Source of the DNA: SAR202 cluster bacterium bin87
GTDB taxonomy: Bacteria; Chloroflexota; Dehalococcoidia; Lucifugimonadales; UBA3495
Length of the DNA stretch: 64,000 bases
Reading direction: 5' to 3'
Assembly (NCBI GenBank): GCA_002238825.1
Contig: MPNC01000002.1
Span: 487,180 to 551,179, forward strand
Position numbers and translations under genes: made by a program. Positions 7,475-8,065 of the stretch are shown here, one piece after another. Under the pieces are notes generated by a model. The model saw only the letters and a program-made list of their open reading frames with translations, had not been told where the DNA came from and ran no database searches. Within the stretch, counting starts at the first letter, position 1, and each line of letters starts with the position of its first letter.

Positions 7475-8065
7475 CTAGTCTGCGCGGTCGTGCCCCAAAA
7501 GGGCCGCGACTATCTCCGGTGCCACCGCGTCCACCCGCGACTCAATCGCCGCCGTGTCCAAGGCTGCCACCGGATGCTGCAGGTACACCGACCCGCCGTA
7601 GTCGGGCCGACCCAGCGAAAGGATGTGCTGCTCGGCGGCCGACCGGAACGCCTTGGTGTGCACCACCACCGTGCGCACTCCCCGGTCTTCCAGTTCCACT
7701 GCATCGCGCAAACTGCGCGCCACGCAACTTCCTCAATCCCCCACCGCAGTCACGACGAAATCGCACTCCGCTAGTTCGTCAATGATCTCGGGCGCGGCGG
7801 GAGCCGAAAACACCCACTTGGAACGCACCAGGGAGTCGGTCATCCCGTAACCGTCCGACAGCTTGGAGCGGATCGCCTCCAGGATCACGTCGGCGTTGCC
7901 CTTGCGGTTGTCCAGGAATCCTCCCTTCAAACCTTCCAGCGTCTCCAGCGGAGCCGCGGGCCGGCGCTCCGGTTCTTCCTGCCTGTCGGTCGGATCAACC
8001 AACCCCAGTGCGGCAATTCGGGCCGACAAATCAGTATTGCCTATCATCCTTTCCATCCTGTGCAT
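7475..8065 (-). CDS. UGSC family selenoprotein, with in-frame UGA read as selenocysteine
   Basis: One reading frame runs from ATG 8065 to the stop at 7475, interrupted only by a TGA at 7735-7733. Read as Sec, it gives 196 aa, and the context is FVVTAVGD-U-GSC-VARSL, exactly the UGSC motif that names this (seleno)protein family. Without recoding, the two halves (110 and 82 aa) are fragments with continuous homology. A hairpin with a suitable loop starts just after the UGA (see 7700-7726). ATGs at 8056 and 8047 are alternative starts. It begins 9 nt after its partner gene. Biochemical function unknown. Confidence 0.85.
7700..7726 (-). promoter_or_regulatory. Candidate bacterial SECIS element
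   Basis: On the minus strand, TGCGT pairs with ATGCA (one G-T wobble), a GG bulge follows, then CGCGC pairs with GCGCG around the 5-nt loop AGTTT. The loop starts 18 nt after the UGA. Known bacterial SECIS elements lie inside the coding sequence with the apical loop about 16-37 nt after UGA and a G among the first two loop bases; all of this holds here. Folding was done by eye. Confidence 0.65.

Follow-up and report, generated by a model that had tools for sequence, protein, structure and literature searches.

A UGSC-family selenoprotein gene and its recurrent partner gene in SAR202 cluster bacterium bin87: a probable two-subunit selenoenzyme

On the minus strand of a 64,000-nucleotide stretch of the SAR202 cluster bacterium bin87 genome (hereafter the window), two open reading frames of 110 aa (7733-8065) and 82 aa (7475-7723) share a common frame and are divided solely by a TGA at 7735-7733, raising the question of whether they are two halves of one selenoprotein gene and, if so, to what kind of enzyme that gene would contribute. 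Read-through of the TGA gives a protein of 196 aa that carries the stretch FVVTAVGD-U-GSC-VARSLRD, in which U is selenocysteine (Sec); candidate ATG starts lie at 8065, 8056 and 8047, and as the choice between them is uncertain, the length is given as approximately 190-196 aa including Sec. Taken separately, the two halves match the NF041046 profile at complementary parts (E 1e-9 and 2e-12), and after read-through the match runs along the full length. The product scores 148.8 bits against PF24696 ("UGSC family"; gathering cut-off 25), spanning profile positions 2-171 of 172, and 116 bits against NF041046, below the curated equivalog cut-off of 125. On these scores, the gene belongs to the broad UGSC family and lies outside the equivalog set named by NCBIfam. 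The shared frame, the U-G-S-C context and the continuation of family sequence beyond the TGA had all been pointed out in a preliminary description of the locus, and each is found in the sequence. Coordinates are collected in Table 1.

Table 1. Coordinates of the features of the UGSC locus, numbered along the window
Feature	Position	Strand	Remarks
UGSC-family selenoprotein gene	7475..8065	-	PF24696 E 2.3e-43; NF041046 E 1.4e-33; stop TAG
Sec codon TGA, first residue of U-G-S-C	7733..7735	-	TGA also in 8/8 paralogues and 108 homologues
Bacterial SECIS hairpin, 5-bp stem CGCGC/GCGCG, loop AGUUU (7710-7714)	7705..7719	-	RNAalifold, covariation, synonymous null
Partner gene, 344 aa, unnamed conserved family	8075..9109	-	directly upstream of UGSC gene, same strand

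The gene adds a new member to a family that is itself already known, the recognition of UGSC as a selenoprotein dating back at least to 2008 (Zhang and Gladyshev 2008, PMC2398784); that GOS survey gives 255 Sec forms and 21 Cys forms. Compared with the UGSC-containing selenoproteins described there (PF24696, NF041046), the window gene is alike in its end-to-end match, in having U-G-S-C with Sec first and in the SECIS element just downstream, and the homologues collected here are likewise mostly Sec rather than Cys forms. A literature search for UGSC in SAR202, or for the function of UGSC, returned nothing.

The genome contains eight UGSC genes, each with exactly one in-frame TGA, and in all eight the TGA encodes the initial residue of UG(S/G)C. 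The other copies are only 27-38% identical to the window copy and are therefore old paralogues, whose TGAs cannot be explained by an error in one read. A TGC, TGT or TGG misread as TGA at 7735-7733, one of the circumstances that the preliminary description had named as fatal to its proposal, is excluded because all eight paralogues carry TGA. Across the phylum, UGSC is present in 42 of 400 genomes, and nearly all matches contain one TGA.

Among approximately 110 homologues, the codon at the Sec position is TGA in 108, TGC in three genomes and TAG in Blastococcus. The three genomes with TGC (Cys) are those of Natrialba asiatica, a Binatia bacterium and a Hyphomicrobiales bacterium (loci L094, L139 and L151), in which the best matches to the tRNA-Sec model RF01852 are tRNA-Ser or tRNA-Leu and no recognisable tRNA-Sec is present; Cys in place of the UGA in organisms that do not use Sec had been anticipated. 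In Blastococcus sp. CT_GayMR19, TAG replaces the UGSC Sec codon (L140:5699-5701), and a tRNA-Sec-like gene (L171), labelled tRNA-Pyl by ARAGORN, has the anticodon CTA. Sec encoded by UAG in Geodermatophilaceae, UGSC proteins included, has been reported before, as cited in PMC5330540; as far as that citation describes them, these proteins resemble the window gene in family and in the position of Sec, and differ in using UAG with a CUA-anticodon tRNA-Sec where the window genome uses UGA with UCA. The pairing of TGA with UCA, of TAG with CUA, and of TGC with the lack of a recognisable tRNA-Sec indicates that codon and tRNA change together. The cysteine at position +3 of the motif is replaced by serine in a few members, namely as UGSS in L104, L106 and L113, where the resolving Cys is lost and Sec retained, and as CGTS in L151, and a UxxC selenenylsulfide is therefore not universal in the family.

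An alignment of 107 ungapped sequences was used to examine the RNA downstream of the UGA. RNAalifold, run unaided on all 107, returns a single hairpin with a 5-bp stem and a 5-nt loop; in the window the stem starts 13 nt and the loop 18 nt after the UGA. Pairing is possible in 97.7% of the cells of the stem, compared with 17-58% when one side is slid, and the covariation score is 0.404, compared with 0.136 in shuffles. At the innermost pair, 57 sequences have G-C and 46 have C-G, the 3' base being a third codon position. Since conservation of the protein could mimic conservation of the RNA, synonymous codons were resampled in 2000 trials, giving an expectation of 3.52 pairs and a trial maximum of 3.81 against the 4.86 observed. 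The serine codon of the loop is AGT in 91 of 91 cases against a background of 7%, and the Binatia Cys homologue has lost both this AGT and the innermost pair. After the motif, the window protein reads VARSLRD and departs from the usual (S/T)xxSxHD, and in this region the RNA stem is preserved through compensating changes. The fold of the window sequence alone is not significant (z -1.22), and 18.5% of synonymous recodings keep all five pairs; single-sequence energy by itself is no evidence for the hairpin, but the evidence across the 107 sequences is decisive. The hairpin placed at 7700-7726 by the preliminary description is real and has an AGUUU loop as claimed, the loop beginning 18 nt past the UGA, but only the part listed in Table 1 is conserved, the wider span including extra pairs special to the window sequence. 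In UGSC genes, synonymous sites such as the AGU serine codon and the wobble base track the RNA structure, which makes these genes a clean data set for the SECIS element.

The machinery for Sec insertion is encoded in the same genome (4.96 Mb in 67 contigs, listed as 100% complete), which contains tRNA-Sec (66.4 bits, anticodon TCA, i.e. UCA in the RNA), SelB (352.7 bits), SelA (544.5 bits) and a SelD of the Sec type (L026, G000:C42:681408-682328). All four had been expected elsewhere in the genome, and their positions outside the window fit the earlier remark that the window holds no other Sec machinery; no tRNA gene of any kind was found in its 64 kb. The genome's SelD is itself a selenoprotein, with a single in-frame TGA in the stretch HCAGU. 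In the phylum sample, SelB is present in 38 of the 42 genomes with UGSC and in 310 of 400 overall, a difference that hardly discriminates; at E 1e-65, SelB had no match in the remaining 4 of the 42, three of which are less than 90% complete.

The TGA could instead be a genuine stop, and the gene a pseudogene or a mis-sequenced UGSC gene of the Cys type, given that both ORFs are separately open, that a gene finder would split them and that the hairpin is not significant in the single sequence. This reading is scarcely credible and is refuted by the conservation of the TGA at the same codon in paralogues and homologues and by the covariation of the hairpin; the gene also has no second in-frame stop, and the Sec machinery is complete. 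Genome-wide decoding of TGA as another amino acid, such as Trp, would likewise place conserved protein after an in-frame TGA, but only the motif position is affected, the seven further genes checked in the window lack internal TGAs and use TGG for Trp, and two of the seven end in TGA, such that the TGA stops of other genes refute a reading with next to no probability. Sec insertion at the window UGA is almost certain, and is as well supported as sequence allows. SelB carrying Sec-tRNA(UCA) would bind the hairpin past the UGA and insert Sec instead of terminating, a mechanism predicted with high confidence from the sequence, the machinery and the covariation. The case illustrates how easily annotation can split or overlook genes of this kind.

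The gene directly upstream, to which the preliminary description made no reference, is the partner of UGSC. A gap of 9 nt separates its end from the earliest possible start of UGSC, and its product has no match in Pfam up to E 10 and none above chance in NCBIfam. Conserved residues of the partner, in the numbering of the window copy, are D22, C73, R140 and E174. The genome has eight copies of the partner. Seven share a strand with the UGSC gene beside them, at a match-to-match distance of 75-922 nt, and the eighth forms a UGSC-partner fusion in a single frame (L037/L052, G000:C53:26122-27411; 590-aa open frame). This fusion requires read-through of the UGA, as termination there would leave the product with no partner domain. 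The closest relatives of the partner are in SAR202/Dehalococcoidia genomes.

To sample the association more widely, named genomes were scanned with a seed of the partner alignment alone, the UGSC alignment being too divergent for this purpose, and 80 loci were obtained with no selection on UGSC. UGSC lies on the same strand within 0.6 kb of the partner in 68 of the 80, and in 15 of these the two share a single open frame. Besides L037, there are 20 two-domain single open frames, 18 of which fall in these 15 loci; UGSC comes first in 19 of the 20 and the partner in one. Among the 12 loci without UGSC, eight lie well inside contigs; the other four are short, or their partner gene is close to the end of a contig. 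A fusion selenoprotein termed UGSC/Unknown_1 was described in the GOS survey (Figure S1A of PMC2398784), and L037 and the 20 further genes likewise fuse UGSC to a conserved uncharacterised domain, whereas UGSC and partner in the window are separate adjacent genes. The partner family is likely to be Unknown_1.

A structure was predicted with AlphaFold for a natural fusion (L167:9104-10792; 136 sequences), giving a joint model with a pLDDT of 92.8 and a pTM of 0.93. In its UGSC half, strands and helices alternate in the manner of flavodoxin-like or response-regulator-like domains. The Sec, residue 98, lies just past the strand 90-96 at the start of the helix 99-114. PDB neighbours of this half include periplasmic binding proteins, lumazine synthase, response regulators, flavodiiron and other Rossmann-like proteins (Z up to 9.9; rmsd 3.2 over 126 residues), an arrangement that is common and implies no function. 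No thioredoxin is among the fold neighbours listed, an absence that in itself excludes nothing. The model suggests that the UGSC fold is probably flavodoxin/Rossmann-like and not that of thioredoxin. The partner modelled alone reaches a pLDDT of 94.8. Its best fold match by Foldseek is the N-terminal domain of class I fumarase (E 1.9e-4), with a VIA Z of only 4.4 and an rmsd of 5.4 over 176 residues; although this is the only family that stands out slightly, the match is too weak for homology to be accepted. Sequence searches of the PDB yielded nothing convincing for UGSC or the partner, and a search of PHROGs yielded nothing.

With good confidence, the gene is taken to encode the Sec-bearing subunit, of the UGSC family, of a two-subunit selenoenzyme. 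In the model, the position of Sec at the start of the helix after strand 3 of a flavodoxin/Rossmann-like alpha/beta domain would favour a reactive selenolate, and the upstream gene product would be the partner subunit, which, to judge from the pairing, the fusions and the joint model, probably completes the active site and binds substrate. Together, the pair may act in the degradation of small organic compounds, through a redox or nucleophilic step that depends on the selenol. This tentative role is drawn from the genes that recur nearby, which are TctC receptors (21 loci, including L098), class III CoA-transferases (13), enoyl-CoA hydratases (13), luciferase-like monooxygenases, MmgE/PrpD and TPP enzymes; these neighbours suggest that organic acids or compounds like them are broken down, with no substrate named. 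The catabolic reading is put forward with reserve because the neighbouring families vary by locus and because TctC genes are numerous in Betaproteobacteria, where most of the TctC loci are found. A single pathway is not indicated by the neighbouring genes.

In glycine reductase and D-proline reductase, the Sec-bearing subunits GrdB and PrdB act with other subunits. The UGSC pair might work in the same manner, by selenol attack and a two-electron reductive split of a C-N or similar bond, as both its composition of a Sec-bearing and a second subunit and its neighbourhood of small-molecule breakdown genes would permit; neither protein, however, matches those Pfam families, and this reading is considered unlikely. 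A thioredoxin fold for UGSC was suggested in 2008, according to the account in PMC2398784, and the UxxC motif would suit a stand-alone thioredoxin-like thiol oxidoreductase with a neighbouring gene that is merely co-regulated. Against this stand the strand and helix alternation of the model, the flavodoxin-like or response-regulator-like nature of the nearest solved folds, the natural fusions in both orders and the high joint pTM, which make such an enzyme improbable. On balance, UGSC and its unnamed partner are favoured, with some reserve, as a class of two-subunit selenoenzyme not described before, in which the Sec subunit is flavodoxin-like and whose eight specialised copies in this one genome would act on a range of small organic substrates. 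The main value of the locus lies in this recurrent two-subunit module, present eight times in one genome, with seven copies paired and one fused. A constant partner, fusions in either order and a Sec domain that is probably not thioredoxin-like define a two-component enzyme that can be expressed and assayed, so that a selenoprotein until now an abundant orphan becomes open to testing as an enzyme.

Some partner loci depart from the simple pair. Five of the eight loci that lack UGSC well inside a contig belong to Poribacteria (L130, L145, L147, L153 and L161), and in L130 and L145 the partner adjoins CBS-domain-like proteins. In L128, L154, L160 and L166, two partner paralogues stand in tandem after UGSC, an arrangement that may represent a heteromeric form.
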